NCBI GenBank assembly: GCA_024223125.1
Contig: JAAEOP010001169.1
Span: forward strand, 1-11,984
Reading direction: 5' to 3'
DNA: 11,984 bases
Source of the DNA: Chloroflexota bacterium
GTDB lineage: Bacteria; Chloroflexota; Anaerolineae; Promineifilales; Promineifilaceae
Position 1 is the first letter of the stretch, and the number at the start of each line of letters is the position of its first letter. Positions 1-11,984 of the stretch are shown here, piece after piece. A program made the translations under genes and the position numbers. The notes below the pieces were generated by a model. It saw nothing but the letters and a program-made list of their open reading frames with translations, did no database searches and was not told the origin of the DNA.

Positions 1-510
1 CTGATGCTGCTCTACAAAAGCGGGCATATTGGGGCTGCCAATCTCCTCCTCTCCTTCGATGACAAATTTGATGTGGCAAGGTAGCTCGCCCACAGCATCT
101 TTAACAGCCGCCAGAGCAGCCAGACGGCAGATGATGTGTCCTTTGTCATCGCTGATGCCGCGAGCGTACAGGGTATCGTTTCGTCTGGTCAGAGTGAAGG
201 GATCGGATTCCCATAAATCCAGCGGGTCAGGTGGCTGCACATCGTAATGGAGGTAAAGGAGAAGGGTTTTGTCATGACGGCCGTGACCGCCTCCCACCAC
301 CACCGGATATCCATTAGAAGGCATGATTTCAGCGCTGAATCCCTGTTCTTGCAGCATTGTGGCTACCAGGTCGGCACATTCGTCTATGCCCCAATTTTGG
401 GCGGACACACTGGGTTGAGCGCACAGATGGGCTAATTGTTCAATCCAATAATTCAGATTAGCTTCTATGTGGGCGTCAATTTTTTGATATAGATCAGTTT
501 GTGGGGACAT
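1..510 (-). CDS. M20 family metallopeptidase (dipeptidase-like), C-terminus cut by window edge
   Basis: The 170 visible residues are the N-terminal catalytic part of a zinc-dependent M20 peptidase, a cytoplasmic family that cleaves dipeptides or short peptides. Seen directly: the metal-binding HYDVQP motif (His88, Asp90), the bridging-Asp motif RGISDDKG (Asp121/122) and EGEEEIGS, where Glu155 and Glu156 align with the catalytic base and a metal ligand. The carnosinase-like order and spacing suggest the M20 dipeptidase subgroup rather than acetylornithine deacetylase, but the dimerisation domain and the rest of the catalytic domain lie outside the window, so the substrate cannot be named. The ATG at 508-510 lies inside the upstream phosphatase gene, overlapping its end by 17 nt, with GGAG about 10 nt upstream. 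The overlap suggests translational coupling. No stop codon occurs before the left edge, so the gene is partial. Confidence 0.9.
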   Translation of the reverse strand, partial: MSPQTDLYQKIDAHIEANLNYWIEQLAHLCAQPSVSAQNWGIDECADLVATMLQEQGFSAEIMPSNGYPVVVGGGHGRHDKTLLLYLHYDVQPPDPLDLWESDPFTLTRRNDTLYARGISDDKGHIICRLAALAAVKDAVGELPCHIKFVIEGEEEIGSPNMPAFVEQHQ

Positions 511-1123
511 GGGGGACCAACTCCAAATGACTGGTATCATTTAGCCGGGTTAAATAAGGTTGCTTATTTATCACTTCCACAATGCTCAGGCCAGTATTAC
601 CACGCAAGGAAAAACGGCCGTATTCATCTTCATGTAGTCCAATCAACTGCCCGATGAGTGAATGGAGTAAACCGCCATGGGATACAACAGCCACCATTTC
701 ATTGGGGTGATCTGCCAACACTTTTTCATAAGCAGTTTGGGCGCGGCGGCGCACTTCATGGAAAGGTTCGCCGTTGGGGGGATCAATCAGTCCCCGTTTG
801 CCATTTTGCCCAATTTTGGAGAAGCGTGCCCTTACCTCCTTGCTGGTCATACCGGAAAAATCACCCACATCACGTTCGCGCCAGATGGCGTCGAAGTGTG
901 GTTCCAGGTGATGGTGAGTGGCGAGGACTACGGCCGTTTGCCTACAACGCTGCAAATCACTGCTAATAACTGCTTCAATCGGCCAATCGGACAGACGGAC
1001 AGCTAACTGGGCTGCTTGCTGCCGTCCCGTTTCATTCAATGGAATATCGGCATGGCCTTGCCAACGGCCGGCTTCATTCCAGTCGGTAATACCGTGTCGA
1101 ATTAAGAGTAAGGTTGTGGTCAT
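494..1123 (-). CDS. histidine phosphatase family protein (phosphoglycerate mutase-like)
   Basis: This 209-residue protein is a single-domain histidine phosphatase. Visible active-site elements are LIRHGITDWN (Arg9, and the phospho-accepting His10), SSDLQRCRQTA (Arg59), WRERDVGDFSG (Glu83, the proton donor position) and VVSHGGLLH (His149). This complete set predicts a working phosphotransfer site. The family includes cofactor-dependent phosphoglycerate mutases, alpha-ribazole phosphatase and many broad-specificity phosphatases. The length and the short region between residues 83 and 149 fit the broad-specificity/CobC-like members better than true glycolytic mutase (about 230-250 residues), but no cobalamin gene is nearby to support CobC. 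The ATG at 1121-1123 has AAGGAA just upstream. The 3' end overlaps the start of the M20 peptidase by 17 nt, so the two are probably co-transcribed. Confidence 0.9.
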   Translation of the reverse strand: MTTTLLLIRHGITDWNEAGRWQGHADIPLNETGRQQAAQLAVRLSDWPIEAVISSDLQRCRQTAVVLATHHHLEPHFDAIWRERDVGDFSGMTSKEVRARFSKIGQNGKRGLIDPPNGEPFHEVRRRAQTAYEKVLADHPNEMVAVVSHGGLLHSLIGQLIGLHEDEYGRFSLRGNTGLSIVEVINKQPYLTRLNDTSHLELVPHVPTN

Positions 1124-1153
1124 GGGTTCCTTGTGCAGTGTGCAGGACGGGAC

Positions 1154-1183
1154 ACTGAAAACTGATTACTGATTACTGAAAAC
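1154..1183. repeat. short direct repeats between the Mrr-like and phosphatase genes
   Basis: The nine-mer ACTGAAAAC occurs at 1154-1162 and 1175-1183, bracketing two tandem copies of TGATTAC (1163-1169, 1170-1176). The repeat supplies the last codons and stop of the Mrr-like gene (VFSNQ-stop). It resembles, in word style, the degenerate repeats at 2658-2709, 9363-9437 and 10148-10175. No function is evident. Confidence 0.55.
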
Positions 1184-1750
1184 GGCCGCCAAATGAGCCA
1201 GGACAGCGCCATCAATCAAGGTCATCGGTTTACCTTGTGCCCAGGTGCGGGCGGAATGTGAAATGTCGGCCGTGGTAACAAGAAAGGCGTGGGCTACCCG
1301 TTCGTGCATAAGCGTACCGTATAGTTCTCGCACAATATCGGGACCGATGGTGTTTCGGTACCGTTTGCATTGCACGATGGCCTGTTTGCCATTCGCCTGG
1401 GTCAACATCAAATCCACACCATTGTCTCCACGACGGCCGCGCAGCTTCACCCGATATCCTTTGCGCCGGAACAAATCGGCTACATACCGTTCAAATTCGT
1501 AAGGGTTCAAGGCATATAGTTCTTCGATATCGAGGGGGTGGACGGTCACGGCCGTTTTCCGCTGCCCTCGCCACCACAACATCAGCCACAACAGGGTTAA
1601 GGTTACAAAACCGGCAATCTCGGCCAAACGCAGCAGTTCATCAATGGTGGGCGGCAGATTTGCCAGCCAATCGGGGCGACTAACCAAACGTACAAACAGC
1701 CACAAGAGGTACACGGCCGTTAATATTCCAATCATCAACCGACTACTCAT
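1166..1750 (-). CDS. membrane-anchored Mrr-like restriction endonuclease domain protein
   Basis: From the ATG at 1748-1750 the product is 194 residues. Two hydrophobic helices (about residues 6-22 and 46-60) are followed by an Mrr-type PD-(D/E)xK nuclease domain. Seen directly: the helix NPYEFERYVADLF, then GYRVKLRGRRGDNGVDL with Asp113, then QAIVQCKRY with the Gln127-x-Lys129 variant of the catalytic ExK, which is usual in Mrr proteins. The C-terminal ARTWAQGKPMTLIDG is also typical of the family. Mrr enzymes cut modified DNA, and the TM-Mrr architecture is a recurring membrane-tethered form of unknown target. An open frame continues upstream to a GTG at 1966, but those 72 extra residues are Arg/Pro-rich, lack the family's character and overlap a transposase relic, so I chose the internal ATG although its ribosome site is weak. 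No methylase or other restriction gene is adjacent. Confidence 0.82.
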   Translation of the reverse strand: MSSRLMIGILTAVYLLWLFVRLVSRPDWLANLPPTIDELLRLAEIAGFVTLTLLWLMLWWRGQRKTAVTVHPLDIEELYALNPYEFERYVADLFRRKGYRVKLRGRRGDNGVDLMLTQANGKQAIVQCKRYRNTIGPDIVRELYGTLMHERVAHAFLVTTADISHSARTWAQGKPMTLIDGAVLAHLAAVFSNQ

Positions 1751-1865
1751 TTTGGGTCTGGTAGACGGCCGTGTTGTCAGATGGGGTGATTGTTGACGGA
1801 ACTTCAAATCATATCGGGCCAGCATTCGGCAATTGTAAAGGGGAAGCGGGAAAACCCCAAATTCT

Positions 1866-1994
1866 TCAAGTCCTCGGCGCTTGGGAAGATACCTTGAGAG
1901 ATAGTCCCCGATGCGAAAACAGGGTCGTAAATTGCTGATCGCGATACAGTGACCCCATTTCGTCACGCATGGTCATATTCACATTTCCTTGAGG
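1866..1994 (-). pseudogene. relic of an IS1182-like transposase N-terminus
   Basis: Reading the minus strand from about 1994, the frame gives VPQGNVNMT, MRDEMGSLYRDQQF and TTLFSHRG, then diverges and stops at 1866-1868. This closely follows the N-terminal pattern I know from IS1182-type (DUF772-containing) transposases, roughly FPKGN-x-Y-x-RLRDELG-x-(I/L)Y-x(3)-F-x(2)-LF-x(2)-RG, which in intact proteins continues into a QPAEAPWRLALVTV-like segment. That continuation is absent, as are the DDE residues and terminal inverted repeats, so only some 30-35 codons survive (about 1905-1994). The fragment sits between the Mrr-like and peroxidase-related genes and accounts for most of that 266-nt spacer. 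The rest of the spacer (1751-1865) shows nothing I recognise beyond one ACGGCCGT copy. Similarity is judged by eye only. Confidence 0.55.
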
Positions 1995-2016
1995 GACAAG
2001 TTGCCAGGACGGCCGT

Positions 2017-2598
2017 TCAGCGCGCCAATGTATGATATTCTCGATTGGGCATCATGCCTGTGGCCGCCGCTAAACGGTTGGTAAAGTTGTACATGGCAGC
2101 AATTTCGGCAATGTCAAAAATAGCCTCGTCCGAGAATCCTAACTGACGCAGATGTTCAATATCATCCTGGTTACATTCAACAGGGTTGAGCGTGATTTTG
2201 ACGGCATAATCCAACATAGCGGTTGTTCTTTCATCTAACCCCGCTCGCCGGTAATCTAATGTAATACGATCTCCCAGAACGGGGTCTTCTAGCGCCGCCC
2301 TTAAATCAGCCCCATGACTGACCAAACAGTATAGGCAATGGTTTTCTGAGGAAACGACCACACTAATCATCTCTCGTTCGGCCGAAGATAAATCTGATTC
2401 GCCGCTTGTTAATTCCCGAAAATGAGTAAACCAGGGCCAAAAATGTGTCGGCCGAAAAGAGTAAGCGACAAAGACATTGGGCACAAACCCTATTTTTTCT
2501 CGTGCTTTAGCAAATAGTTTTTGCAAACCTTCATCCAGGGATTCCTCTTCGGGAAGTGTAAACCAACAAATTTGTTCTTTTTCAATCTTCATCGTCAT
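2017..2598 (-). CDS. AhpD-like / carboxymuconolactone decarboxylase family, peroxidase-related protein
   Basis: The product (193 residues from the ATG at 2596-2598) is an all-helical AhpD-like protein. The diagnostic motif SSENHCLYCLVSHG carries the redox pair Cys88 and Cys91 and His95, the proton-relay arrangement of alkylhydroperoxidase AhpD. The preceding segment, with KIGFVPNVF and LSSAEREMISV, and the following KITLNPVE and LRQLGFSDEAIFDIAEIAAMYNFTNRLA, fit the 'uncharacterized peroxidase-related enzyme' subgroup. Probable role: thiol-dependent reduction of hydroperoxides in the cytoplasm. The electron donor is unknown. Several in-frame starts (GTG 2607, ATG 2601, 2598, 2592) are possible; AGGTG at 2605-2609 gives the best spacing, 6 nt, to 2598. 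An ACGGCCGT copy begins immediately after the stop. The gene is 142 nt downstream of the baeRF10-like gene, with a hairpin between. Confidence 0.85.
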   Translation of the reverse strand: MTMKIEKEQICWFTLPEEESLDEGLQKLFAKAREKIGFVPNVFVAYSFRPTHFWPWFTHFRELTSGESDLSSAEREMISVVVSSENHCLYCLVSHGADLRAALEDPVLGDRITLDYRRAGLDERTTAMLDYAVKITLNPVECNQDDIEHLRQLGFSDEAIFDIAEIAAMYNFTNRLAAATGMMPNREYHTLAR

Positions 2599-2657
2599 CA
2601 TTGTCACCTATTGAATGTTAAGGGATTAGGGTTGGGGATAAAATATATGTCTTGAAT

Positions 2658-2709
2658 GAGATTAGGAGATAGAGAGATTCAATCTCCTAATCTCTCTATC
2701 TCTAATCTC
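2658..2709. repeat. inverted repeat of AATCTC words (possible 3' hairpin)
   Basis: The arms at 2658-2679 and 2689-2709 pair almost perfectly, with one unpaired G, around a loop of about 9 nt. The sequence is built from AATCTC/GAGATT words and is also partly direct-repetitive. It lies 30 nt past the stop of the baeRF10-like gene on the minus strand, so it could protect or end that transcript. No U-run follows the stem directly, so I do not call a standard intrinsic terminator. Confidence 0.55.
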
Positions 2710-2740
2710 TAAAGTGGAACAGCTAATAAATCATGGTTTG

Positions 2741-3847
2741 TTAATAACGCAAAATCGCTCCGATACGGCCGATATCTTCCAGTTTGGGGTTGTCGCGAAT
2801 GACTTCTACGTGGCCGCCATTGCTCATTGTGCTGGCGCAGGCGGTATCTACTATGTCGTCTACGGCCGTTAGCTCAGTGTCGCTAAACGGGCTTTTGGTC
2901 AGGTTAGCCACCAAAAAACCAGAGGCGCCATCCATGTAGCCAGGATAACGATAGCCGTCGCTGATGATGAGAGTTTGCACCCGCTTTTCGCTGACTGCTT
3001 GTAATGTTTCATCCAGTCCGATGACGGCCGTACCCCCCTTTGCCTGAGTGGTAAGCAAACGTTCTACTAGATTTTGTTCTCGTTCCATATTTGTCTTTTG
3101 AAGCAAGTCAAGCGATTGTTGACGCACGGCATGTTCACCGGCATTCATGTCCATGGCAAATGTACCGGCAATGCAGCTTTGCAACTGTTTGGGCAGCAGT
3201 TCCCGAAACTCAGCTACCGTTTCCGAAGTGCCGCCTAAGAAGAGGCGTCGAATAGGGGCGCTGTTGAAAAAGTCTACGGCTGCTTCGGCTGATTCACGAA
3301 TATTACGATGAACCATTTCCTCTTCATGACGGCCGCCGCCTACCCCGCCACGCATACCTACCGCTGAGGAGCCACCCCCTTGCTTCTGTTTGTGTATTTC
3401 TTCACCCATAAAGCCTTCCGTGGCCTGCAACTCGCCGAGATGATACTCAAAGAAGCGAGCGCCTATCCGGTCCACCAGGGTGACACCATAATGGGCATAA
3501 AAATCGAGCAAATGGGCCAGGGGTTTTACATAGGGTTTGGGGCCGACACGCACACGATTACGAAACGAGACGCCCGCTGGATAAGCCCGGAAAAAATTGT
3601 CACTATTGCTGCTAAAGAGAGCCAGACCGGGGCTGTCCCAGCTATAGCTCAAATTAAGGTACCGTTCAATAGCGGCTATATCTTCTTCCTGGTCTACGTT
3701 TGCCTCCCGAAGCATTCCTTTGACCTGCAACTTAATAGTCTCCTGGGATTCTTGAGCGGTATCCGCATCCAGGTATAGACTAATGACTTTACGGCCATTG
3801 TTCGTTTGATGAGACAACAATTCATGTAACTGGTCTTGAGTTATCAT
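2741..3847 (-). CDS. baeRF10-like bacterial eRF1-domain protein (putative ribosome-associated release factor homologue)
   Basis: This 368-residue protein has the three-part order of the bacterial/archaeal eRF1-like (baeRF) families. The N-terminal region (1-115) contains VISLYLDAD. A middle domain (about 118-200) has strands LVDRIGARFFEYHLGEL, a glycine-rich loop at 157-173 and the helix EEEMVHRNIRESAEAAVDFF. The C-terminal alpha/beta domain (about 198-368) contains RRLFLGGTSETVAEF, VERLLTTQAKGGTAVIGL and VQTLIISDG. The loop takes the place of the eRF1 GGQ loop but reads GGVGGGRH, with no GGQ tripeptide. Eukaryotic relatives act at the ribosomal peptidyl-transferase centre; the function of most baeRF families is not established, so ribosome rescue is an inference. 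AGGAGGT lies 3 nt before the ATG, an unusually strong ribosome site predicting good expression. A REP-like element lies in the upstream region. Confidence 0.78.
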   Translation of the reverse strand: MITQDQLHELLSHQTNNGRKVISLYLDADTAQESQETIKLQVKGMLREANVDQEEDIAAIERYLNLSYSWDSPGLALFSSNSDNFFRAYPAGVSFRNRVRVGPKPYVKPLAHLLDFYAHYGVTLVDRIGARFFEYHLGELQATEGFMGEEIHKQKQGGGSSAVGMRGGVGGGRHEEEMVHRNIRESAEAAVDFFNSAPIRRLFLGGTSETVAEFRELLPKQLQSCIAGTFAMDMNAGEHAVRQQSLDLLQKTNMEREQNLVERLLTTQAKGGTAVIGLDETLQAVSEKRVQTLIISDGYRYPGYMDGASGFLVANLTKSPFSDTELTAVDDIVDTACASTMSNGGHVEVIRDNPKLEDIGRIGAILRY

Positions 3848-3850
3848 GGT

Positions 3851-3857
3851 ACCTCCT
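3851..3857 (-). promoter_or_regulatory. near-perfect Shine-Dalgarno of the baeRF10-like gene
   Basis: On the minus strand AGGAGGT is followed by ACC and the ATG at 3845-3847. It is the strongest ribosome site I see in the window and fixes the start of the downstream gene. Confidence 0.8.
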
Positions 3858-3873
3858 ACATAAACTCAATGTA

Positions 3874-3901
3874 ACTATACAGGTGTTTCTTGACTGTCAT
3901 A
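3874..3901 (-). promoter_or_regulatory. possible promoter of the baeRF10-like gene, -35 inside a REP-like element
   Basis: On the minus strand TATAGT (3874-3879) is a good -10. The best -35 candidate is ATGACA (3895-3900, 15-nt spacing) or the overlapping TATGAC (3896-3901, 16-nt spacing). These -35 bases are the end of the palindromic element at 3894-3980. The spacing is short and the assignment rests on pattern alone. Confidence 0.35.
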
Positions 3902-3980
3902 CCCGCGAAGGCGGGTATCCAGGTGTGTGGCTTCCTGCCTTCGCAGAGCCTGCCCTCACGAAAATGGGGGAATGACCTGT
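3894..3980. repeat. REP/MITE-like palindromic element
   Basis: The left end reads GTCATACCCGC-GAAG-GCGGGTATCC, a compact hairpin. The right end reads ATGGGGGAATGAC, so the element is bounded by inverted GTCAT-x-CCC ends (3896-3904 and 3968-3976). An interior GCCTTCGCAGAG (3937-3948) looks like a worn copy of the opposite arm. This matches the style of the dispersed GTCATTCCCGCG-type palindromes seen in many bacterial genomes. It fills most of the 192-nt spacer between the HtrA-like gene and the baeRF10-like gene. The remaining part (3981-4039) shows nothing clear. Confidence 0.65.
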
Positions 3981-4039
3981 ATCGTCACAACTCAATAATA
4001 ATATGGGATCTATGTTAGCTGCGTTGCGTTGTTAAAATG

Positions 4040-5236
4040 TTACGGCCGTTCACCCAATGTCAACGGCACAGTAACCTCTTCTCCACGACGGATGACGGTT
4101 AAATCTACCGGATCACCCACCTGTGTTTCAAAAACAAGATAGCTCAACAAATCATCTGAATTACGAACCGGCACACCATCTATGGCTACAATGTAATCCC
4201 CTTCAGCGGCAAACTCTACACTGAGATTGTGTCCGATTAAACCGGCTTTGTCGGCTGGCGTATCTGATCCCACGCCACTCACCCAAACGCCATTGGGCGG
4301 CAATCCCAACTCGTTTAACTCGCGTAAATTAAACGGCTCGGAACGCATACTGATGCCCAGATAAGGGTAAATATATTCACCCATGTCTACCAGCGCAGGG
4401 GCGATATTCCGCACGGCATTAACGGGAATGGAAAAACCCACGCCCGAACTGGCTCCAGTACGGGAAAGAATGGCGCTGTTGACACCAATCACTTCCCCAT
4501 CCAAATTAAGGAGGGGACCGCCAGAGTTGCCAGGATTAATGGCGGCGTCTGTTTGAATGACCTGGGGGATGGAAAAGTAACCGCCAGCCACAACTCGCTG
4601 TGAATCCAATGTGCGCCCCAGCCCGCTGATGATGCCGATGGACATGGAGCTTTGTTCGCCAAATGGATTGCCGATGGCAATGACAAACTGCCCCACGCGC
4701 AGGGCGCTGGAATTACCCAGAGGGACGGGTTTCACATCGGCTGGTAATTCATCTACTTTGATGACGGCCAGGTCACTGTCTACATCTTTACCCACAACGT
4801 CGGCGTAGCGACGTTGTCCATTGGCAAAAACAACTTCGTAGTTGGTTCCGCCACCGACGACGTGGTTATTGGTGACGATGTCGCCATGGCTGTCAAACAC
4901 GAAACCGCTGCCGGTGCCGGCCAACTCATCCCCTTCATAAACAAAGATATGGACGACGGAAGGGTTGACACGGCCGTAAATCTCAATCATGCGCTGTTCC
5001 AAATCTGAGGTGATCTGAGTATTCAGCGCTGGGACGTTAACTGCGCTGGGCGACAGTTCGGTCTCAGACGATTGGGCTTCTATGGTAGCCACCGCGCGAG
5101 CTACAATGTCGCTTGTATTAACTTCTGCCGTTTGTGGGTCTAAGATGTCGGGGTTTGTGGCTGCCTGACAGGCAAGACCAAGCAGCAAGAACAGGCCAAT
5201 TAAAATTAAAATAGATTTATTTCGGGTGCGGATCAT
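4040..5236 (-). CDS. HtrA/Deg-like S1C serine protease, predicted lipoprotein with PDZ domain
   Basis: This 398-residue protein begins with a lipoprotein signal: a basic start, a hydrophobic stretch at 9-20 and the lipobox LGLAC, with Cys23 as the lipidation site. A flexible linker (24-75) leads to a trypsin-like domain (about 80-285) whose triad is visible as His125 in VTNNHVV, Asp155 in DVDSDLAVIKV and Ser238 in GNSGGPLL. A PDZ domain follows (about 290-398; YLGISM, GVGSDTPADKAGL, GDYIVAIDGVPV). It should act outside the membrane, degrading or refolding damaged envelope and secreted proteins. All catalytic residues are intact. The start is supported by the signal peptide and by GGAG 11 nt upstream. 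The stop overlaps an ACGGCCGT copy (Arg-Pro-stop). It lies 72 nt downstream of the DnaJ-like gene and has its own weak promoter candidate. Confidence 0.95.
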   Translation of the reverse strand: MIRTRNKSILILIGLFLLLGLACQAATNPDILDPQTAEVNTSDIVARAVATIEAQSSETELSPSAVNVPALNTQITSDLEQRMIEIYGRVNPSVVHIFVYEGDELAGTGSGFVFDSHGDIVTNNHVVGGGTNYEVVFANGQRRYADVVGKDVDSDLAVIKVDELPADVKPVPLGNSSALRVGQFVIAIGNPFGEQSSMSIGIISGLGRTLDSQRVVAGGYFSIPQVIQTDAAINPGNSGGPLLNLDGEVIGVNSAILSRTGASSGVGFSIPVNAVRNIAPALVDMGEYIYPYLGISMRSEPFNLRELNELGLPPNGVWVSGVGSDTPADKAGLIGHNLSVEFAAEGDYIVAIDGVPVRNSDDLLSYLVFETQVGDPVDLTVIRRGEEVTVPLTLGERP

Positions 5237-5308: not shown

Positions 5309-6226
5309 TTAAGTCAGTTGGGCCAATTCCTGGTAAAGCTGACGCTGTTCAGTGGTCAGTTGTGCCGGAATGCGAATCTTGATTGTGGCGAATAGATCGC
5401 CAATCTTATCTTTTTTTTGTAGGGCAGGCATACCTTTGCCTCTGAGCCGGAATGTTTGTCCGCCTTGAGTTCCGGCGGGAACAGTCAATTGCACGTCACC
5501 ACTGAGGGTGGATACGGTCACTTTGCCACCTAACACGGCCGTTACCACATCTACTTCGGCTGTTGTTTTCAAATTGACGCCGTCTACAGTAAAAGTCGGA
5601 TGGGGCTGTATCTGCACAACGAGGTATAAATCGCCGCGGCCGTTTGGCCCCTGGTTTCCTTTACCGCGCAGCCGAATTTTAGCCCCATCTACAACGCCAG
5701 GCGGGATGATGGCCGTAAACTGTTTGCCGCCCTGGCTAAAGCTGCGATCTGTACCCTGGTACGCTTCTTCTAATGTGATTGTGATTGGTTCTTCAGCATC
5801 CATATTACGGGGAGCGTTTCTCTGCCCAAACTCGCTGCCAAAGATAGATTGGAAGAAGTCAGAAAAGCCGCCGTTACGGCCGTCGCCAAACAAATCGTTA
5901 AGATTTACATTTGTCTGATACTGGTAGCCGCCGCGGGGGCCGCCCTGGTTAAAATATTGGGAAAAATCAAAATCACCGGGACGGCCGCCCATTTGCTGGT
6001 AGCGGTGATAATTATGACCCAATTGGTCATATTTTTGACGATTGTCTGAGTTACCTAAAACTTCATACGCCTCATTGATTTGTTTGAATTTCTCTTCCGC
6101 TAATTTGTTGTTGGGATTTTTGTCGGGGTGATGCTGCCGCGCCAAACGACGGTAAGCACGTTTTATTTCTTTGTCGTCAGCCGATTTTGAGACTCCCAAA
6201 ATTTGATAGTAATCTTTGTAGTCCAT
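5309..6226 (-). CDS. DnaJ-family co-chaperone without zinc finger (CbpA / type II J protein)
   Basis: This 305-residue protein starts with a J domain (about 3-70) carrying the HPD tripeptide at 33-35, which stimulates DnaK ATPase. A Gly/Phe-rich linker follows (about 75-140; GDFDFSQYFNQGGPRGG, DLFGDGRNGGFSDFF), then two beta-rich client-binding domains (about 146-290; FTAIIPPGVVDGAKIRLRGKG and its repeat VPAGTQGGQTFRLRGKG) and a short C-terminal helix. There are no CxxCxGxG repeats and no cysteine at all, so this is the CbpA-like class rather than DnaJ proper. It works in the cytoplasm with DnaK, which is not in this window. The ribosome site is weak (AGGAA, far upstream), but a good promoter lies 42-70 nt before the ATG. 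Its position just ahead of the HtrA-like protease suggests shared stress expression, not shown. Confidence 0.94.
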   Translation of the reverse strand: MDYKDYYQILGVSKSADDKEIKRAYRRLARQHHPDKNPNNKLAEEKFKQINEAYEVLGNSDNRQKYDQLGHNYHRYQQMGGRPGDFDFSQYFNQGGPRGGYQYQTNVNLNDLFGDGRNGGFSDFFQSIFGSEFGQRNAPRNMDAEEPITITLEEAYQGTDRSFSQGGKQFTAIIPPGVVDGAKIRLRGKGNQGPNGRGDLYLVVQIQPHPTFTVDGVNLKTTAEVDVVTAVLGGKVTVSTLSGDVQLTVPAGTQGGQTFRLRGKGMPALQKKDKIGDLFATIKIRIPAQLTTEQRQLYQELAQLT

Positions 6227-6296: not shown

Positions 6297-6805
6297 GGGG
6301 AGGAATATGGCGATTTGGTATCATGCGCCTGATTATGCAGTCCGGCCACACTGTTGATATGCTGCCACCAGGTTTCCAGATTGTCTTGTTTATGGGCTGC
6401 GTGTGTTACCCAATCTCCGTTGGGGACAATGGGGAGGGAGAGTTGGTGGTTGACCTGACCTATGTACACCCAGACGGTCACGGCCGTGCCATCCTCCAAC
6501 TGTACTTCTCTGACCAAACGCGCATATTCACTTTCACCTGGTTTGTCAGGAAAATACCCTTCCAAATAATCTAGCCGGGTGAGGACAGTTTTGTAAGCCG
6601 ACGGCCGTACCGTCATCATCATCCCTTTCACCAGATCATCCCCCGTTTCCAGCAACATGGGGTAATTGCCGAGGTCGTAGAGACGGCCGTTAGCCAACGC
6701 AGCCACTTGCCGCTGTATAATGCTCTCGCCCCACAAATAATAATTCGGCTGCCCCGGCAACAATGTGCCATAAACAAAAAATGGGAGTTGGTTATATTGT
6801 GCCAT
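6293..6805 (-). CDS. gamma-glutamylcyclotransferase-like (GGCT/AIG2 family) protein
   Basis: This 170-residue protein has the family signature FFVYGTLLPGQPNY near the N-terminus (YGTL at 12-15, forming the substrate-binding loop) and Glu82 in LDYLEGY, the position of the catalytic acid. GDDLVKGMMM and TAVTVWVYIGQ are further typical strands of the small barrel. Known members cyclise gamma-glutamyl amines or peptides to 5-oxoproline, but many bacterial members have unknown substrates, so only the fold and a likely cyclotransferase activity are claimed. The last 50 residues (QVNHQLSL onward) extend past the core and are poorly conserved in appearance. The ATG at 6803-6805 lies 9 nt after the Uma2 stop with no clear ribosome site, which fits translational coupling to that gene. 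Confidence 0.85.
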   Translation of the reverse strand: MAQYNQLPFFVYGTLLPGQPNYYLWGESIIQRQVAALANGRLYDLGNYPMLLETGDDLVKGMMMTVRPSAYKTVLTRLDYLEGYFPDKPGESEYARLVREVQLEDGTAVTVWVYIGQVNHQLSLPIVPNGDWVTHAAHKQDNLETWWQHINSVAGLHNQAHDTKSPYSSP

Positions 6806-6814
6806 CTTGGATAT

Positions 6815-7495
6815 TTACGTAGGGTTGGCAAGATCCGTCTGAACAGTGGCCAAAACGGCCGCCAGGTCTTCGGTTAGTAGAGCGTTTACGTTAAGCCATA
6901 AACCGGAGAAAATTTGGCTGCGAATGATGCCGTTTTCATCGGTGAGCAGTTCTTTGTATATTCCTTTGTCCAGATAATGCCAAACGACACGGCCGTCATA
7001 AATTTGCCACACAATATATTCCTGCACACCATTACGCCGGTAAATGTCCTTCTTCTCATACAAATCATAAGAAGCGCTGCTGGCTGCAATTTCCACAATG
7101 AGTTCGGGAGCGCCTTCTATGTAATCATCTTCGCTGATACGAGATTGACCATTTTTCTTTTCATCCAGCCGCAATAAAGCATCTGGTTGTACTTCATTAT
7201 CGGTATCCAGGCATACTGTGGCATTATCGCCTAATGACGTGCCCGGTGTGGCCGCGCTATAAACGGCTAACCAACCAATAATATGGGCGTGAGGTTGGCT
7301 GTGGCTATAAAAATGGACGGAGGAGGGTATAATGACAACTCCTTCAATGAGTTCAGCTTTATTTATTCGGGGCATTGTCTTGTAACGGCGTTCAAATTCC
7401 TGTCGCGCCAATCTGTCGCCTGATTCCAGAGGGGGAATGGGGAGCAACCTTGTGGTATATGTGGCTTTTGGGGTCATCACGGCCGTATCGCTCAT
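6815..7495 (-). CDS. Uma2 family (DUF820) PD-(D/E)xK nuclease-like protein
   Basis: This 226-residue protein carries the Uma2 core: the N-terminal ELIEGVVIIPS, then PDALLRLDE (Asp105), GAPELIVEIAASS (Glu131/Glu135) and DLYEKKDIYRRNGVQEYIVW (Lys148/149). Together these form the nuclease-fold site of the PD-(D/E)xK type. Such genes are present in many copies in Cyanobacteria and Chloroflexota, often near mobile DNA. Their biological role is unsettled, and nuclease activity is inferred from fold. The protein is somewhat longer than the usual 180-200 residues because of about 25 extra N-terminal residues. The ATG at 7493-7495 has GGAG 9 nt upstream. The first codons contain an ACGGCCGT copy (Thr-Ala-Val). 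It is the first gene of the leftward block and probably co-transcribed with the cyclotransferase-like gene. Confidence 0.88.
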   Translation of the reverse strand: MSDTAVMTPKATYTTRLLPIPPLESGDRLARQEFERRYKTMPRINKAELIEGVVIIPSSVHFYSHSQPHAHIIGWLAVYSAATPGTSLGDNATVCLDTDNEVQPDALLRLDEKKNGQSRISEDDYIEGAPELIVEIAASSASYDLYEKKDIYRRNGVQEYIVWQIYDGRVVWHYLDKGIYKELLTDENGIIRSQIFSGLWLNVNALLTEDLAAVLATVQTDLANPT

Positions 7496-7611: not shown

Positions 7612-7669
7612 GACAGGATTTACGAGATTAACAGGATTATTTCATCCTGTAAATCTTGTTAATCCCGTC
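7612..7669. repeat. imperfect palindromic ACAGGATT/AATCCTGT element
   Basis: Arms of 26 nt at 7612-7637 and 7644-7669 pair with four mismatches around a 6-nt loop. Each arm also contains direct copies of the ACAGGATT-like word. Similar 'aggattaacaggatt' strings are widespread in bacterial spacers. The element lies between divergent genes, so it cannot be a terminator for either. The rest of the 7496-7776 spacer holds the promoter noted below and nothing else I can name. Confidence 0.6.
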
Positions 7670-7727
7670 AAAAAAGTTGTTTTCGATAATGTCTATTGTA
7701 CCATACGCCTGCCATATTTTGCGGTCT

Positions 7728-7736
7728 TGTTATAAT
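7728..7736 (+). promoter_or_regulatory. extended -10 promoter for the plus-strand block
   Basis: TGTTATAAT is a perfect extended -10 (TGn followed by TATAAT at 7731-7736). No good -35 is visible at 16-18 nt, which is normal for extended -10 promoters. Transcription would begin near 7743, which argues against translation starting at the upstream TTG (7696) or the ATG at 7738. Confidence 0.5.
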
Positions 7737-7776
7737 CATGCCTCTAATGAAGACAACAACATCAAAACCCCCTGAA

Positions 7777-9354
7777 ATGAACCCGAACCAATTGCCTGGT
7801 CAAAGCCAGAAACAGTTATATGTGACTGTTTTTGTAGCCGGCATGAGTACGCTGGCGGTGGAATTTACTACCAGCCGGATGTTGCAAACGGTATACGGCA
7901 CGTCCAACATCGTTTGGGCCAATGTTATTGGGCTGGTGCTGTTCTTCTTGACGATAGGGTATTTTTTAGGGGGGCGGTTGGCAGACAAACGGCCGTATCC
8001 TCACACCTTTTACACTCTTGTCACCCTCACCGGTTTTTGCAGCGTCTTCTTTTTGCTGTTGACCAGTATTATTTTGAAATCGGCCGCATCTGCGTTGGCG
8101 GCCGTGAATGTGGGCGCTATTGCCGGGTCGCTGTTGGCGGTGATTATGACACTGGCTGTGCCGGTAACGCTGTTGGGCTGTATTTCTCCCTTTGCCATCC
8201 GGCTAGCAGTGCGAGATGTGAATGAGGCAGGGCGTATTAGCGGCCGTATCTACGCCATCTCCACTATGGGCAGTTTATTAGGCGCGTATCTGCCGGTATT
8301 GTTCGTCATTCCGCTGGCTGGTTCGCGCATGTCGGCTTTTATTTTTGGGCTGATTTTGTTGTTGGCGGGACTGTTTGGCTTGTGGCGGAGTAGACCAAAA
8401 GCTGGTTTGGTGGCGGCCGTGCTGCTGCTGGCGCTGCTGCCGGTCGCTTATTTGTGGACACAGGGCAGCATCAAAACGTATGAAGGTCAGATTTTTGAGA
8501 CGGAATCAGCTTACAACTACATTCAAGTCATTCGCCAGGGAGAGTGCAATTATTTACTGCTCAATGAAGGGCAGGCGTACCACTCCTTTTATTGTGACGG
8601 CGGCACTGTGCCTCGCGTCTCCGTGTGGAGCATTATGTTGGCCGCTCCCTACTTCAATCCAGGCCCGGTGGAAGTGCAAAATCTGGGAGTGATTGGGTTG
8701 GCAGCGGGCACAATTCCCAAGCAGTATACGCGGGTTTTTGGCCCGATTGAGGTGGATGGTATTGAACTGGACCCGGCGATTATTGAGGCAGGAGTGGATT
8801 ATTTTGCGTTGGGAGAACCGAATATTAACCTGATTGCTGGCGACGGCCGTTACCAACTCAACCGCCTGGAAACCCATTATGATGTTATCACTATTGACGC
8901 CTACAAAGTGCCCTACATTCCCTGGCATCTAACAACACAACAGTTTTTCAATGAAGTGCAAGATCATCTAACAGAAAAAGGGGTGGTGGCGGTGAATGTC
9001 GGCCGCGCCCCACAAGACCGACGGCTGGTAGAGGCGATGTCGGCCACGATGTTGACCGTTTTTCCCACCGTCCATGCCATTGATGTGCCCGGTACGTTGA
9101 ACACAATTCTGGTGGCCACCATGCAGCCGACAACAGCCGACAATCTGACCCAAAACCTATCCCAATTAGACCCTAATGTAGACCCGCTGCTGCGGACGGT
9201 GTTGGAAACGGCCGCAACCCACCAAGTCCCCCTCAATCCCGCCGATGTCATCTTCACCGACGAACGCGCCCCGGTAGAAACCATTATAGATTCGCTGGTA
9301 CTGCGCTTTTTACTGCAAGAAGGACCGGGTGGATTGCCCGGTTTGGGATCGTAA
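7777..9354 (+). CDS. fused membrane / spermidine-synthase-like protein
   Basis: From the ATG at 7777 the product is 525 residues. Seven hydrophobic helices occupy about residues 14-226 (VTVFVAGMSTLAV, VIGLVLFFLTIGYFLGG, LVTLTGFCSVFFLLL, and others), followed by a spermidine-synthase-like domain (about 235-510). That domain shows the nucleotide-binding strand GVIGLAAGT (304-312), the acidic strand end GIELDP (330-333), AGDGRYQL and DVITIDAY (Asp374). The C-terminal FTDERAPVE is a usual family ending. Aminopropyltransferases carry an acidic D-x-x-D site after this strand; here it reads DAYKVPYIP, so spermidine synthesis is doubtful. Frames allow TTG 7696, ATG 7738 or 7747, but the promoter at 7728-7736 and the usual short N-terminus before the first helix favour 7777. 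Ribosome site weak. Function unknown; probably a membrane-bound SAM-dependent enzyme. Confidence 0.87.
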   Translation: MNPNQLPGQSQKQLYVTVFVAGMSTLAVEFTTSRMLQTVYGTSNIVWANVIGLVLFFLTIGYFLGGRLADKRPYPHTFYTLVTLTGFCSVFFLLLTSIILKSAASALAAVNVGAIAGSLLAVIMTLAVPVTLLGCISPFAIRLAVRDVNEAGRISGRIYAISTMGSLLGAYLPVLFVIPLAGSRMSAFIFGLILLLAGLFGLWRSRPKAGLVAAVLLLALLPVAYLWTQGSIKTYEGQIFETESAYNYIQVIRQGECNYLLLNEGQAYHSFYCDGGTVPRVSVWSIMLAAPYFNPGPVEVQNLGVIGLAAGTIPKQYTRVFGPIEVDGIELDPAIIEAGVDYFALGEPNINLIAGDGRYQLNRLETHYDVITIDAYKVPYIPWHLTTQQFFNEVQDHLTEKGVVAVNVGRAPQDRRLVEAMSATMLTVFPTVHAIDVPGTLNTILVATMQPTTADNLTQNLSQLDPNVDPLLRTVLETAATHQVPLNPADVIFTDERAPVETIIDSLVLRFLLQEGPGGLPGLGS

Positions 9355-9362
9355 TCCATTGC

Positions 9363-9437
9363 CCGTAATCCGTATTCGGTAATCGGAACACGGATTACGG
9401 ATTACGGAACACGGATTACGGAACACGGAACACGGAG
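9363..9437. repeat. degenerate direct and inverted ACGGATTACGGAACAC repeats
   Basis: The 88-nt spacer after the spermidine-synthase-like gene consists almost wholly of GGATTACGG and GAACACGG words. An inverted pair (9363-9377 with 9386-9400, one mismatch, 8-nt loop) forms a 15-bp hairpin, and GGATTACGGAACACGGA-like units repeat up to 9437. The last unit supplies GGAG at 9434-9437, the ribosome site of the next gene. The hairpin might also weaken read-through, but no U-run follows it. Confidence 0.7.
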
Positions 9438-9442
9438 AAAAA

Positions 9443-10135
9443 ATGGAACAATCAACCTGGCTAAAAATCATACGGTTCGCCATCATCATCGCCATGCCTT
9501 TTTTCCTGGGGTTGGGGATGATTTTAATGGTAATCAATTGGAATTCGCCGACGTACCCGGAATGGGAATACGGCCGTATCCCCCCCGACCAATTTGGTTT
9601 TAACCCCGAAGAACGGCTGGATTTGGCCCAAAAAACATTGCGTTACCTGCGCCATCCAGGGCAAGCCAAAGATGTCATTACCTTGCTGGAAGAATTGCAA
9701 ATTTCGGACACAGGCGAACCGCTTTATAACCCGGCCGAAATTGGACATATGCTGGATGTGAAAAATGTGACCGACAACATTCGTTTTGTGTGGCTTGTTT
9801 CCATGATTGTGGTCGTGGTTAGCAGTCTGGTTTTGTTGGTGAAACCGGAAACGGCCGTGACCGGCTGGCGCACTATCATGTTTGGCGGCATTTTTACGGT
9901 GATTGTGCTGTTGGCAATTGCCCTGTTTATCTTGCTGGCCTGGGACATCTTTTTTGTCCAATTCCACGAACTGCTCTTCCCGCCTGGCTCCTGGACATTT
10001 GCCTACAGCGATGGCCTCATCCGTCTATTCCCAGAACAGTTTTGGTTTGACATTGGCGTCATCATGAGCGGCGGAGCGCTATTGATGGGCGGAGTGACGG
10101 CCGTATTGGGCTACCTCATGGCCCGACGGGGGTGA
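9443..10135 (+). CDS. Lit-like (DUF1461/TIGR01906) membrane protein, putative lipoprotein intramolecular transacylase
   Basis: This 230-residue protein has four predicted membrane helices (about 8-32, 114-133, 145-171 and 203-226), with a large loop between the first and second. Family-typical motifs are EIGHMLDVKNV (His102) in that loop, FHELLFPPGSW (His175) after the third helix and DGLIRLFPEQFW before the fourth. This is the DUF1461/TIGR01906 family, whose characterised member Lit moves an acyl chain within diacylated lipoproteins to make the lyso form. The two conserved histidines are the likely active-site residues. I infer the same reaction here; it has been shown for Firmicutes proteins. 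The ATG at 9443 has GGAG with 5-nt spacing, formed by the upstream repeat. The HtrA lipoprotein in this window would be one possible substrate. Confidence 0.82.
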   Translation: MEQSTWLKIIRFAIIIAMPFFLGLGMILMVINWNSPTYPEWEYGRIPPDQFGFNPEERLDLAQKTLRYLRHPGQAKDVITLLEELQISDTGEPLYNPAEIGHMLDVKNVTDNIRFVWLVSMIVVVVSSLVLLVKPETAVTGWRTIMFGGIFTVIVLLAIALFILLAWDIFFVQFHELLFPPGSWTFAYSDGLIRLFPEQFWFDIGVIMSGGALLMGGVTAVLGYLMARRG

Positions 10136-10147
10136 GGGGCGACAAGG

Positions 10148-10175
10148 CAATCTCCCAATCTCCAATCTCCCAATC
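10148..10175. repeat. CAATCTCC tandem-like repeat before the SDR gene
   Basis: Three 7-8 nt CAATCTC(C) units and a final CAATCAC fill the short leader between the Lit-like and SDR genes. The words match those of the inverted repeat at 2658-2709. They precede the ribosome site and carry no coding signal. Confidence 0.6.
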
Positions 10176-10177
10176 AC

Positions 10178-10183
10178 AGGAGG
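10178..10183 (+). promoter_or_regulatory. Shine-Dalgarno deciding the SDR start
   Basis: AGGAGG is followed by 5 nt and the ATG at 10189-10191. It rules against the upstream in-frame ATG at 10132, whose extra residues would be encoded by the CAATCTCC repeat. Confidence 0.85.
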
Positions 10184-10188
10184 CTTCC

Positions 10189-11049
10189 ATGGAATCTATT
10201 CTCATCACCGGCGTCTCGACCGGCATTGGTTATGACGCCGCCAGGACATTGGTTGGGCGCGGCTACCGGGTTTTTGGCAGTGTGCGTAAACAGGCAGATG
10301 CAAACCGGACGCTGGCGCAGTTGGGAGAGGGGTTCACCCCACTGCTGTTTGATGTGACTGATGTGGCGGCAATTGAAACGGCCGTAAGCCACATACAATC
10401 AATCATCGGCCAGGAAGGGTTGACGGCCGTAATCAACAACGCCGGCATTGCCGAACCTGGCCCGTTGATGCACATGCGTCTGGATGATTTTCGTAGACAT
10501 CTGGAAATTAATGTGATCGGCGTCTTGGCCGTTACTCAAGCCTGCCTGCCACTTTTGGGGGCGCGGCTGGATGCGCCTCATCCACCAGGACGAATTATTA
10601 ATATCAGTTCCGTCAGCGGCCGAATTGCCTATCCCTTTATGGGCGCGTATACCGCTTCCAAACACGCTCTGGAAGCAATGTCAGACGCACTACGGCGGGA
10701 ATTGCTGCTGTATGGCATTGATGTGGTTTTGATTGAACCGGGTACAGTGAAAACGCCTATCATTGGCAAATTTGCAGCGCAAGTAGAGCAGTATATGGGA
10801 ACAGATTACGGCCGTTTTCTGCAACCACTGGCCGCTACCATTGAGAAACGGGAACAGTCTGCCCTACCTGTAGAACGAGTGACCGGGACGATTGTCCAGG
10901 CATTAGAAAGCGCTTCCCCCAAAACCCGCTACCCCATCCCCCGCAAAAAATTAACCGGCTGGCTCATTCCCCGTCTGCTGCCAGACCGTTTGTTTGACCG
11001 GCTTGTGGCGCGGCAACTTGATATGCGTAAACTGCAAAACGGCCGTTAA
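10189..11049 (+). CDS. short-chain dehydrogenase/reductase (classical SDR)
   Basis: This 286-residue enzyme is an NAD(P)-dependent oxidoreductase of the classical SDR family. Visible elements are the cofactor motif TGVSTGIG (7-14), FDVTD (54-58), NNAG (83-86), the catalytic Ser141 in INISSVSG, YTASK with Tyr154 and Lys158, and PGTVKT (184-189). Arg33, with no acidic residue at the end of the second strand (GSVRK), favours NADP(H). The C-terminal 80 residues (after about 205) resemble retinol/hydroxysteroid dehydrogenase-like SDRs, but the substrate cannot be read from the sequence. The start is fixed by AGGAGG. The gene follows the Lit-like gene by 53 nt on the same strand. Its last codons and stop (Asn-Gly-Arg-stop) are an ACGGCCGT copy, and its end faces the M23 gene with an 11-nt gap. 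Confidence 0.93.
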   Translation: MESILITGVSTGIGYDAARTLVGRGYRVFGSVRKQADANRTLAQLGEGFTPLLFDVTDVAAIETAVSHIQSIIGQEGLTAVINNAGIAEPGPLMHMRLDDFRRHLEINVIGVLAVTQACLPLLGARLDAPHPPGRIINISSVSGRIAYPFMGAYTASKHALEAMSDALRRELLLYGIDVVLIEPGTVKTPIIGKFAAQVEQYMGTDYGRFLQPLAATIEKREQSALPVERVTGTIVQALESASPKTRYPIPRKKLTGWLIPRLLPDRLFDRLVARQLDMRKLQNGR

Positions 11050-11060
11050 CAAAAATTTGT

Positions 11061-11984
11061 CTAATCCTCAATCACAATTTCCACAAACGACGTGCGCCGC
11101 GGGTAGACCCATACTTCTTCTGTAAACTTTTCGTCGCCTACATGGACAGTCACTTCATAATAACCGGCGACCACATCATCAATGGCAAAATTTTCCTGCC
11201 ACACATCATCCAGGTTTAAGGCTTCTCTGGCATAGCTGGTTGTGGTCGCATAACGGGAAGCGGCGTCTACACGAGAAAGGCTGACCGGGGCTTCATATGC
11301 CAGACTGCCATCCGGGAAAATAACACGGCCGACAACTGTCCCCCGATCTGGAAAAGGCCACAACCACAACAATGGGTTGACTGTGGATTCATAGCTATTT
11401 TCCCCAATTCGGACTTCAAAGTGCATATGCGGCCCATCAGCCACCCCGGTTGCGCCAGAAAGCCCTAATAACTCGCCAGCCTCTACATGCTGCCCCTCGT
11501 TTATCCTAACTTCGTTTAGATGGCCGTAAAGGGTATAAAGAGGATGTCCCCGGTAGGGAGTGTCATGTTCTAATATGACCAGGTTTCCATAGAAGTTGGT
11601 ATGCGGACCGTGAGCGATGAGGTCGTCTCGTCCGGCGGCAATGACTGTGCCGCTGGCGGCCGCAAGAATTTCCGTATTGTAGGCCACATCAAACTCCACC
11701 CCATGATGGGGACGCAGTTCGCCGCCGCGAGTGCTGCCATAGGGATAATGTTTGTTTGTCCAAACGATGCCATCTTCAGCGACAGGCCGCCGCAGCCAGT
11801 AATGTTCGTCGGGCAAGGTTTGGGGTAGGGCGGGCGGGGTAAAGGTGGGCATGGGGGTGTTGGTGGCAGTTCTGGTGGGCAAGACGGCCGTCGGGCTGGG
11901 AAATGGCGTTGGTTCTTTTGTTAACTCATTGGGGTCAGGCAATGAGAACGAGGGCATATTGGTGGGCACGGCCGTAGGCGTGGA
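11061..11984 (-). CDS. M23 (LytM-like) metallopeptidase with Thr/Pro-rich linker, N-terminus cut by window edge
   Basis: The 307 visible residues begin inside a low-complexity Thr/Pro linker (PTRTATNTPMPTFTPP, to about residue 55) that runs off the right edge without a start, so the secretion signal is probably outside the window. The GTG at 11967-11969 is only a Val in this linker. The peptidase domain (about 80-208) shows RPHHGVEFD, YGHL and GPHMHFEV. Zinc ligands by alignment are His93, residue 97 (Glu instead of the usual Asp) and His188, with His186 as the catalytic partner. A C-terminal beta-rich domain (about 212-307; GRVIFPDGSLAYEAPVSL, YYEVTVHVG) resembles an Ig-like or carboxypeptidase-regulatory fold. 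Family members cut peptidoglycan cross-links or serve as scaffold for amidases. It probably acts outside the cell in wall remodelling. It is convergent with the SDR gene, with no terminator visible between them. Confidence 0.88.
   Translation of the reverse strand, partial: STPTAVPTNMPSFSLPDPNELTKEPTPFPSPTAVLPTRTATNTPMPTFTPPALPQTLPDEHYWLRRPVAEDGIVWTNKHYPYGSTRGGELRPHHGVEFDVAYNTEILAAASGTVIAAGRDDLIAHGPHTNFYGNLVILEHDTPYRGHPLYTLYGHLNEVRINEGQHVEAGELLGLSGATGVADGPHMHFEVRIGENSYESTVNPLLWLWPFPDRGTVVGRVIFPDGSLAYEAPVSLSRVDAASRYATTTSYAREALNLDDVWQENFAIDDVVAGYYEVTVHVGDEKFTEEVWVYPRRTSFVEIVIED

Follow-up and report, generated by a model that had tools for sequence, protein, structure and literature searches.

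The Window and Its Most Frequent Octamer

The stretch analyzed here, referred to as the window in its full length of 11,984 nt, is contig JAAEOP010001169.1 of a Chloroflexota bacterium and has a GC content of 50.2%. Ten of its genes received ordinary names in a Pfam scan (His_Phos_1, Mrr_cat, CMD, baeRF, and trypsin/PDZ as well as DnaJ, GGACT, Uma2, spermine synthase, and M23). The most frequent 8-mer of the window is the palindrome ACGGCCGT, which is a highly iterated palindrome (HIP) of one order-level group of Chloroflexota with the constant core CGGCCG and a lineage-specific outer base pair, A..T in the case of ACGGCCGT.

A first interpretation made from the letters alone, in the following the sequence-only reading, had reported 29 exact copies and about 50 CGGCCG cores. 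Both numbers were reproduced in a recount (29 copies, the first at position 277 and the last at 11968-11975, and 50 cores), and the claimed spacing of about 400 nt agrees with the measured mean gap of 418 nt, i.e., (11968-277)/28. The asserted excess of more than 100 times the chance level holds under a uniform model, which expects approximately 0.18 copies, but not under an order-3 Markov model, for which 1.5 copies (an excess of approximately 19-fold) and 14.8 cores are expected. A Markov model of maximal order expects 25.8 copies, which says only that the 7-mers within ACGGCCGT are enriched too.

Shuffling of synonymous codons in the genes of the window gave 3.07 expected copies (standard deviation (SD) 1.65, maximum 8 in 300 shuffles) versus 26 observed in genes, so that codon and amino acid usage do not explain the abundance of the word; a full explanation by codon and dinucleotide bias had been named in the sequence-only reading as a result that would speak against the claim. 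Over 20 loci, the same procedure yielded 63 expected versus 480 observed copies. The density amounts to 1.69 per kb in coding and 1.34 per kb in non-coding DNA, with all phases used. In the window, the genic copies are distributed over the three reading phases with 13, 9, and 4 copies, two copies are located beyond the tabulated genes, and one spans a gene start. Of the 12 tabulated genes, which lie on both strands, 11 carry the word, as claimed for unrelated genes of both strands, the CMD gene (2017-2607) being the only one among them with no copy. The copies, to which no strand is assigned, are listed below.

277..284, ACGGCCGT copy 1, outside tabulated genes
614..621, copy 2, histidine phosphatase gene
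930..937, copy 3, histidine phosphatase gene
1548..1555, copy 4, Mrr_cat gene
1713..1720, copy 5, Mrr_cat gene
1765..1772, copy 6, Mrr_cat gene
2009..2016, copy 7, intergenic
2862..2869, copy 8, baeRF/eRF1-like gene
3024..3031, copy 9, baeRF/eRF1-like gene
4042..4049, copy 10, trypsin/PDZ protease gene, 3′ end
4970..4977, copy 11, trypsin/PDZ protease gene
5535..5542, copy 12, DnaJ gene
5876..5883, copy 13, DnaJ gene
6480..6487, copy 14, GGACT gene
6601..6608, copy 15, GGACT gene
6683..6690, copy 16, GGACT gene
6989..6996, copy 17, Uma2 gene
7479..7486, copy 18, Uma2 gene
7989..7996, copy 19, spermidine-synthase-like gene
8843..8850, copy 20, spermidine-synthase-like gene
9570..9577, copy 21, open reading frame (ORF) 9443-10135
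9851..9858, copy 22, ORF 9443-10135
10097..10104, copy 23, ORF 9443-10135
10378..10385, copy 24, ORF 10132-11049 (short-chain dehydrogenase/reductase (SDR)-like by eye)
10423..10430, copy 25, ORF 10132-11049
10808..10815, copy 26, ORF 10132-11049
11039..11046, copy 27, ORF 10132-11049
11884..11891, copy 28, M23 peptidase gene
11968..11975, copy 29, spans start of M23 ORF

The remaining CGGCCG cores lack the A..T flanks (bare cores) and are likewise given without strand.

1065..1070, bare core
1183..1188, bare core
1267..1272, bare core
1434..1439, bare core
2379..2384, bare core
2449..2454, bare core
2766..2771, bare core
3330..3335, bare core
5637..5642, bare core
5982..5987, bare core
6856..6861, bare core
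8081..8086, bare core
8099..8104, bare core
8241..8246, bare core
8414..8419, bare core
9000..9005, bare core
9209..9214, bare core
9732..9737, bare core
10617..10622, bare core
11326..11331, bare core
11657..11662, bare core

Two further features of the window were recorded. The gene at 1166-1966 on the minus strand encodes an Mrr_cat nuclease-like protein (PF04471, E 3.9e-30) with hydrophobic stretches toward the N-terminal side, which by eye look membrane-spanning. Short tandem repeats with 7-8-nt units of the CCAATCTC / GGAGATTG type are located at 10148-10175 and 2681-2709; this type was also found in relatives, in 14 of 74 sequences scanned, including L271, L264, L019, and L008.

Genome-Wide Enrichment in the Order

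The eRF1-like protein of the window (2741-3847, minus strand) shares 72-78% identity with its best relatives, the named ones of which come from Ardenticatenaceae, Anaerolineae, and Chloroflexi sources. A contig scan with alignment of 20 eRF1-like relatives resulted in 33 loci, 32 of them from Chloroflexota or its classes, and in 24 of these 32 ACGGCCGT is the top 8-mer (ties included, N runs ignored). At the loci L027 and L028 this place is taken by TCGGCCGA and GCGGCCGC, respectively. The nearest proteins and loci bear out the placement in Chloroflexota guessed in the sequence-only reading. The order-level group is probably Promineifilales, one relative being a Promineifilum. The baeRF family 10 protein (bacterial eRF1-like) occurs in many, not all, genomes of the order and is a useful marker.

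For the genome-wide test, 56 draft genomes from the order of G001, all relatives of the window, were used, the reversed word of the same composition served as control, and rates per Mb were computed on rounded genome sizes. In 27 of the 56 genomes the word is rich, with approximately 990-2,100 copies per Mb (2,984 to 15,176 copies each), whereas the reversed word has 40-459 copies in the same genomes. Three genomes (G005, G034, and G049) are intermediate with 420-510 per Mb, and the other 26 have at most approximately 180 per Mb. Among 400 Chloroflexota genomes drawn evenly, the only rich one was G001 (the centre genome, from this order); the next-highest counts were 646, 549, and 471, the first two from members of the order.

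The sequence-only reading had proposed a genome-wide palindrome resembling the cyanobacterial HIP1 and had named, as the finding that would speak against it, a Markov-expected rate in the rest of the genome. Tested on the relatives from the order, the enrichment is genome-wide, and the proposal stands. The word is spread evenly over the loci of many rich genomes, which supports the attribution to the genome and rules out a mobile element as carrier. HIP1 (GCGATCGC) and its alternates are described in PMC4390886 as 8-bp GC-rich palindromes with about 500-2500 copies per Mb. The density of a top octamer in this range was found for the window and for the 27 genomes; the word is present in coding and non-coding DNA and is not part of a longer repeat, as the flanks beyond 4 nt diverge at approximately the background rate, with the exception of one tandem array in genome G003. 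In density and spread the word qualifies as a HIP. It is not HIP1, since copies of GCGATCGC are absent from the window (0) and the relatives are Chloroflexota.

The spacing is near Poisson with a coefficient of variation of 0.92, which rules out regular spacing. Pairs at 30-40 nt are in excess (68 versus 29 expected), mostly from loci of G003 contig C12, which supplies 45 of them, 38 in L270 and L271. Pairs less than 30 nt apart are rarer than expected for words with the outer pair A..T (41 versus 92) and G..C (2 versus 15). The array itself, seen in L270 as well, is non-coding and covers positions 1-6400 of L271 (contig C12, from 160 kb). Over its first 7.3 kb, L271 contains no ORF of at least 150 amino acids and several clusters of the word, one of which consists of tandem 92-bp units; there is one ACGGCCGT per approximately 45-46 bp, most with a G-rich run before it.

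Constant Core and Outer-Base Dialects

Outer bases were surveyed in pooled stretches of the genome set and then by genome-wide word counts. In the pooled stretches the core CGGCCG is constant, and the outer pair is A..T in most genomes, T..A in G027 (68 of 83 cores) and G033 (51 of 70), and G..C in G028 (71 of 79). G034, G049-G051, and G053 show no clear preference. In G037, TGCCGGCA takes the place of the CGGCCG word, with 43 copies in 44.5 kb. No conspicuous word was seen in the 14-29 kb inspected per genome for G035, G036, and G038.

Genome-wide, TCGGCCGA has 9,414 copies in G033 and 7,668 in G027 (elsewhere at most 2,070), and GCGGCCGC has 12,040 in G028 (elsewhere at most 1,959). The core outnumbers its reversed control in, e.g., G034 (21,019 versus 132), G050 (22,240 versus 1,218), and G028 (13,814 versus 51), and not in G035 (6,534 versus 11,589) and G037 (447 versus 7,315). 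Variants of the A..T word differing by one base are common only at the outer positions, where they reach 1.0-4.9 times the expectation; inside the core they reach at most 1.8 times. As side observations, G037 contains 3,665 copies of TGCCGGCA in 4.0 Mb, next to 447 of CGGCCG, with a similar flank skew (see below), and GCCGGC is almost absent from G028 (51 in 8.0 Mb) and G034 (132 in 4.1 Mb), as if restriction-avoided.

A tree was built from a single protein, with several low supports; G033, G034, G038, G044-G047, and G049-G052, where the protein was not found, are missing from it, and three of 12 extra proteins (L643-L645) were left out. The A..T genomes sampled form one clade together with a GC-rich, word-poor group, which lies beside G022 (A..T). 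G027 (T..A) and G028 (G..C) are sisters, and the core-only G053 is placed near the base. This layout suggests an ancestral CGGCCG core with subsequent dialects and losses.

Conservation of Individual Sites

Single sites were followed in aligned relatives, with both directions of each pair counted. At 93.5% identity ACGGCCGT was intact at 38 of 39 sites, while the intact fraction is 0.62 for all 8-mers and also for 8-mers matched in GC and CpG. The corresponding values are 68 of 77 at approximately 90% identity (all 8-mers 0.51, matched 0.50), 52 of 61 at 81.7% (0.25 and 0.24), and 94 of 114 at approximately 78% (0.20 and 0.18). An additional set with approximately 75% identity had 70 of 86 intact (all 8-mers 0.16). 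These counts show that single copies are maintained at their positions.

A Symmetric Skew in the Flanks

On both strands, G exceeds C in the 5′ flank of ACGGCCGT, so that each site is the centre of a dyad-symmetric skew, which is strongest up to 20 nt from the word and clearest at four-fold degenerate positions; this symmetric flank skew around the palindrome is new here. Over all bases, the GC skew of the 5′ side is +0.28 at 5-10 nt, +0.16 at 11-30 nt, +0.07 at 31-50 nt, and +0.04 at 51-100 nt. At 11-30 nt the word reaches +0.165 (standard error (SE) 0.005), and 26 control palindromes have an SD of 0.026, a maximum of +0.058, and a minimum of -0.069. Beyond 10 nt, 10 of 12 control words remain within approximately 0.02 of zero, GGCGCC goes up to 0.04, and CGATCG, with 52 site-strands, swings to approximately 0.1 in AT skew and 0.06 in GC skew. 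All 28 sequence sets, i.e., 27 genomes plus the window (+0.26), have a positive skew, 26 of them beyond 2 SE.

At four-fold degenerate positions around 1,348 genic copies, the skew of the 5′ and 3′ sides is +0.55/-0.50 at 5-10 nt, +0.42/-0.42 at 11-20 nt, +0.22/-0.31 at 21-30 nt, and +0.14/-0.16 at 31-50 nt. The difference between both sides at 11-20 nt is 0.84, compared to at most 0.11 for four control words. Two layers can be distinguished at these positions, a purine layer up to approximately 20 nt, where the purine skew stops, and a G-over-C tail of approximately +0.10 from 60 to 120 nt. The skew is alike in all three motif phases, and an extended G at -3/-4 is seen in the A..T genomes. 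Around the A..T word, non-coding DNA has +0.35 at 5-10 nt and +0.22 at 11-20 nt. The TCGGCCGA and GCGGCCGC dialects have a skew of the same sign at four-fold sites, TGCCGGCA of G037 has the same skew over all bases, and the core-only genomes have a weak one of +0.04 to +0.10.

Clusters or the array as source of the skew were ruled out, since it persists once clustered sites and the loci of the array are taken out. At 84 orthologous positions with the word in only one genome and no CGGCCG in the other, the skew is +0.145 with and +0.036 without the word (SE 0.020 each, errors that are optimistic because sequence pairs overlap in the phylogeny), and at 388 shared sites it is +0.174. The flank skew is tied to the presence of the site.

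A hairpin or cruciform formed by the flanks was rejected, as there is no general positional complementarity and the own flank folds no better. Summed for k=2..25, the complementarity is 0.265 versus 0.268 shuffled for A..T, 0.261 versus 0.260 for T..A, and 0.272 versus 0.262 (SD 0.005) for G..C, with single-position A..T outliers at k=1 (z +5.2) and, perhaps via codon phase, at k=10 (z +4.1); the RNA folding energy is -14.54 with the own flank and -14.50 with that of another site (SE 0.23). Cytosine deamination on exposed single strand was rejected as well. Near the word, C at four-fold sites is exchanged for G and some A, and T is not raised, so that the skew does not come from C-to-T deamination.

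Pairs of 77-82% identity have the same four-fold divergence at 5-20 nt and at 101-200 nt (0.46 each), and their C-G differences are less frequent close to the word (30 of 343 versus 241 of 2,061 sites far from it). For pairs of 88-94% identity, divergence is somewhat higher near the site (0.23 versus 0.18) and C-G differences are slightly more frequent there (16 of 255 versus 60 of 1,355). Both classes diverge less at 1-4 nt, with 0.36 versus 0.46 and 0.11 versus 0.18, respectively.

Copies in Viral Contigs

Viral contigs were sampled as 120 stretches among the matches listed for a query of two ACGGCCGT copies within 30 nt, which favours dense contigs. Among these matches, four contigs have 3.46, 3.25, 2.98, and 2.42 copies per kb in the parts inspected. 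A tail tape-measure protein (E 6e-68) is encoded on one dense contig; a second dense contig has genes for an anti-repressor and for a protein of lytic-tail or endolysin type. In seven dense contigs (550 site-strands) the skew is +0.23 at -3/-4, +0.05 at 5-10 nt, and approximately zero further out; dense viral contigs carry the word but without the long skew. For the T..A dialect, none of the viral contigs among the matches listed was clearly dense, the ten densest having no more than 11 copies.

A Putative Symmetric DNA-Processing Complex

The flank skew bears on two of the functions suggested by the sequence-only reading, a repair or recombination signal and a site for chromosome organization. 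Tentatively, and with more doubt than confidence, we regard the word as a maintained recognition site of a putative symmetric DNA-processing complex. Each copy would be recognized by a symmetric, sequence-specific complex, which most likely would act in strand-directed repair or recombination. Such a complex may nick, cut, or stop at the palindrome and expose or load a single strand, whose 3′ end at the site would correspond to the 5′ flank of each strand. There, in host chromosomes, biased mutation or biased fixation could replace C by G, and by purines generally within approximately 20 nt, and so produce the observed skew. The dense phages may be spared or used by this host machinery, or their DNA may have ameliorated to that of the host.

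Several observations weigh against this proposal. No binding or cleaving protein for the word was identified, and the substitution pattern favours neither biased mutation nor biased fixation. In non-coding DNA the skew of the A..T word almost vanishes past 20 nt (+0.02 to +0.04 at 21-100 nt). The avoidance of short spacing below 30 nt is not clear for T..A (25 versus 30 expected) or for phages (31 versus 25). Finally, long AddB-like frames (PF12705, at least 900 amino acids) were found in ten of the 56 draft genomes, so that, judged by this profile, RecBCD/AddAB-Chi is not a general system of the order, and it was set aside as candidate. PDDEXK_1 nuclease-like proteins, mostly frames of approximately 265-330 amino acids, are present in 47 of the 56 genomes, in rich and poor ones alike.

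Alternative Explanations

In a methylation scenario, an orphan methyltransferase (MTase) modifies CGGCCG and methylation-directed mismatch repair ratchets the flanks toward the 8-mer, as Elhai proposed in 2015 for the HIPs of cyanobacteria (PMC4390886). The palindromic core with variable outer base resembles HIP1 and its alternates, GGCC contains the GC required by the model, and the one-base variants of the A..T word deviate mainly at the outer bases, as is reported for HIP1 in the same source. A long symmetric skew is not predicted by this model, and there is no general C-to-T excess in the core (one position with 1.8 times the expectation on 6 counts).

The MTases themselves were searched by profile in draft genomes, for PF00145 and PF01555 in 32 of them (25 word-rich for PF00145). 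PF00145 is present in 16 of the 32 and missing in 12 of the 25 word-rich genomes (G001, G002, G008, G009, G012, G015, G016, G018, G019, G024, G025, and G030). PF01555 matches all 32 at E of at most 0.001, only weakly in the word-rich G002, G010, G012, and G015; since G010 has a PF00145 match, three rich genomes (G002, G012, and G015) have a strong match to neither family. From 30 best-match PF01555 loci 26 proteins were obtained, 16 with DPPY or DPPF and 10 with SPPY, which we take to be a motif of the N4C type; six of the 10 form one cluster, considering the best match per genome only. PF02086 (D12) was found in 45 of the 56 genomes, among them the word-poor G035, G036, and G038, and not in the core-rich G050-G053. 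Judged by its motifs, this widespread protein is presumably a GATC-type Dam, and it was rejected as partner, as its distribution does not follow the word. Phosphorothioation (DndE in 3 of 56 genomes) and Vsr-type repair (8 of 56) were also rejected.

Thus, none of the three MTase families searched in these drafts tracks the word or is common to the word-rich genomes, specificity not being readable from sequence, and the suggested orphan methylase for CGGCCG gained no support; as the genomes are drafts, this is an absence of support and not a proof. The tie of the word to methylation seems weakened, and we consider a methylation mark unlikely.

Alternatively, an abundant nucleoid-associated or chromosome-structuring protein could bind the word, with the purine flank to approximately 20 nt as a soft footprint of approximately 48 bp. 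This would fit the dyad symmetry, the extended G at -3/-4, the end of both the purine skew and the non-coding skew at approximately 20 nt, the avoidance of closely spaced A..T and G..C copies, and the strong conservation of sites. Yet the four-fold G-over-C tail, which reaches 100 nt and more, is not accounted for by a footprint, the flank is missing past approximately 10 nt in dense viral contigs, and flanks beyond 4 nt are not conserved across genomes, which makes this explanation rather improbable.

A signal for the uptake or transfer of DNA, maintained by drive and differing in dialect between lineages as DNA uptake sequences (DUS) and uptake signal sequences (USS) do, would account for a density near 1-2 per kb, the constant core with dialects, the occurrence in coding and non-coding DNA, and the high conservation. 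Uptake words are, however, not palindromes according to PMC1939737, word-dense viral contigs exist, and the skew is not predicted, so an uptake role appears very doubtful. That mutational, codon, or dinucleotide bias alone produced a functionless word is hardly tenable; nothing was found for it besides the general GC-richness of the word, and it is already contradicted by the codon shuffles, the Markov and reversed-word controls, the similar density in non-coding DNA, and the site conservation.

Comparison With Known Systems

No description of this word in Chloroflexota, nor of such a skew, was recognized in searches of the open-licence PMC literature, which agrees with the statement of the sequence-only reading that none was known. 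DUS and USS resemble the word in density, genome-wide spread, and dialects around a core, which DUS dialects share. The Chloroflexota word differs from them in being palindromic, in occurring in viral contigs, and in its symmetric skew. Chi is likewise an overrepresented short word, linked to a 3′-ended single strand, as is plausible for the word described here. The latter is palindromic and denser, and long AddB-like frames are limited to the ten drafts mentioned; for Escherichia coli, 1,008 Chi sites in 4.64 Mb are given in PMC1939737. Repetitive extragenic palindromic (REP) elements are repeated palindromes too, but the word has only 8 bp and lies mostly within genes. An 18-bp palindrome of the REP kind in Caldithrix has 38 exact copies, mostly intergenic, according to PMC5317091.

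The closest likeness is to HIP1, for which, to our knowledge, no function has been agreed on. Both are GC-rich 8-bp palindromes of similar density with outer-base alternates on a core; for some cyanobacterial lineages, PMC4390886 describes such alternates, e.g., TCGATCGA. Viral contigs dense in HIP1 also exist, a piece of 4 kb reaching 4.2 per kb, and one cyanobacterial plasmid has a skew of the same sign. On this Kovacikia plasmid (700 kb, 433 HIP1 copies) the skew is +0.082 (SE 0.020) at 5-10 nt, +0.047 (0.015) at 11-20 nt, +0.025 (0.015) at 21-30 nt, and +0.034 (0.011) at 31-50 nt. Its controls are mostly near zero, with CAGCTG (76 site-strands) at +0.134 (0.052) at 11-20 nt, TGATCA at +0.047 (0.014) at 31-50 nt, and CGATCG outside HIP1 at +0.03 to +0.05 at 5-30 nt. 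In one stretch of a Pseudanabaena plasmid (122 site-strands), a skew beyond 4 nt was seen only at 21-30 nt (+0.14, SE 0.04). The cyanobacterial skew, of the same sign and much weaker, is suggestive only. A stretch of Calothrix sp. NIES-4105 plasmid2 (L298) contained no HIP1 in 50 kb, and GGCGCC words were its most enriched palindromes; an enrichment of GGCGCC words is reported for another Calothrix in PMC4390886.

It may be speculated that HIPs in general are bidirectional, Chi-like DNA-processing sites, which would have arisen independently in Chloroflexota and Cyanobacteria, work free of methylation, be marked by the symmetric G/C skew of a 3′-ended single strand, and be carried by phages for sparing or processing; we consider this generalization doubtful. 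HIPs have so far been a cyanobacterial riddle, and the Chloroflexota word offers a new route to asking their purpose. Another phylum now has an unrelated second core, with dialects, viral copies, strong site-by-site conservation, and no accompanying MTase found, which sets the phenomenon apart from GATC methylation. From the symmetric skew one obtains a direct, strand-specific prediction of the events at such sites and a cheap sequence test for other candidate HIPs. Compared to HIP1, the Chloroflexota word thus has another core, CGGCCG, belongs to another phylum, comes with no MTase that was found to accompany it, and shows a flank skew approximately 3.5 times stronger at 11-20 nt.

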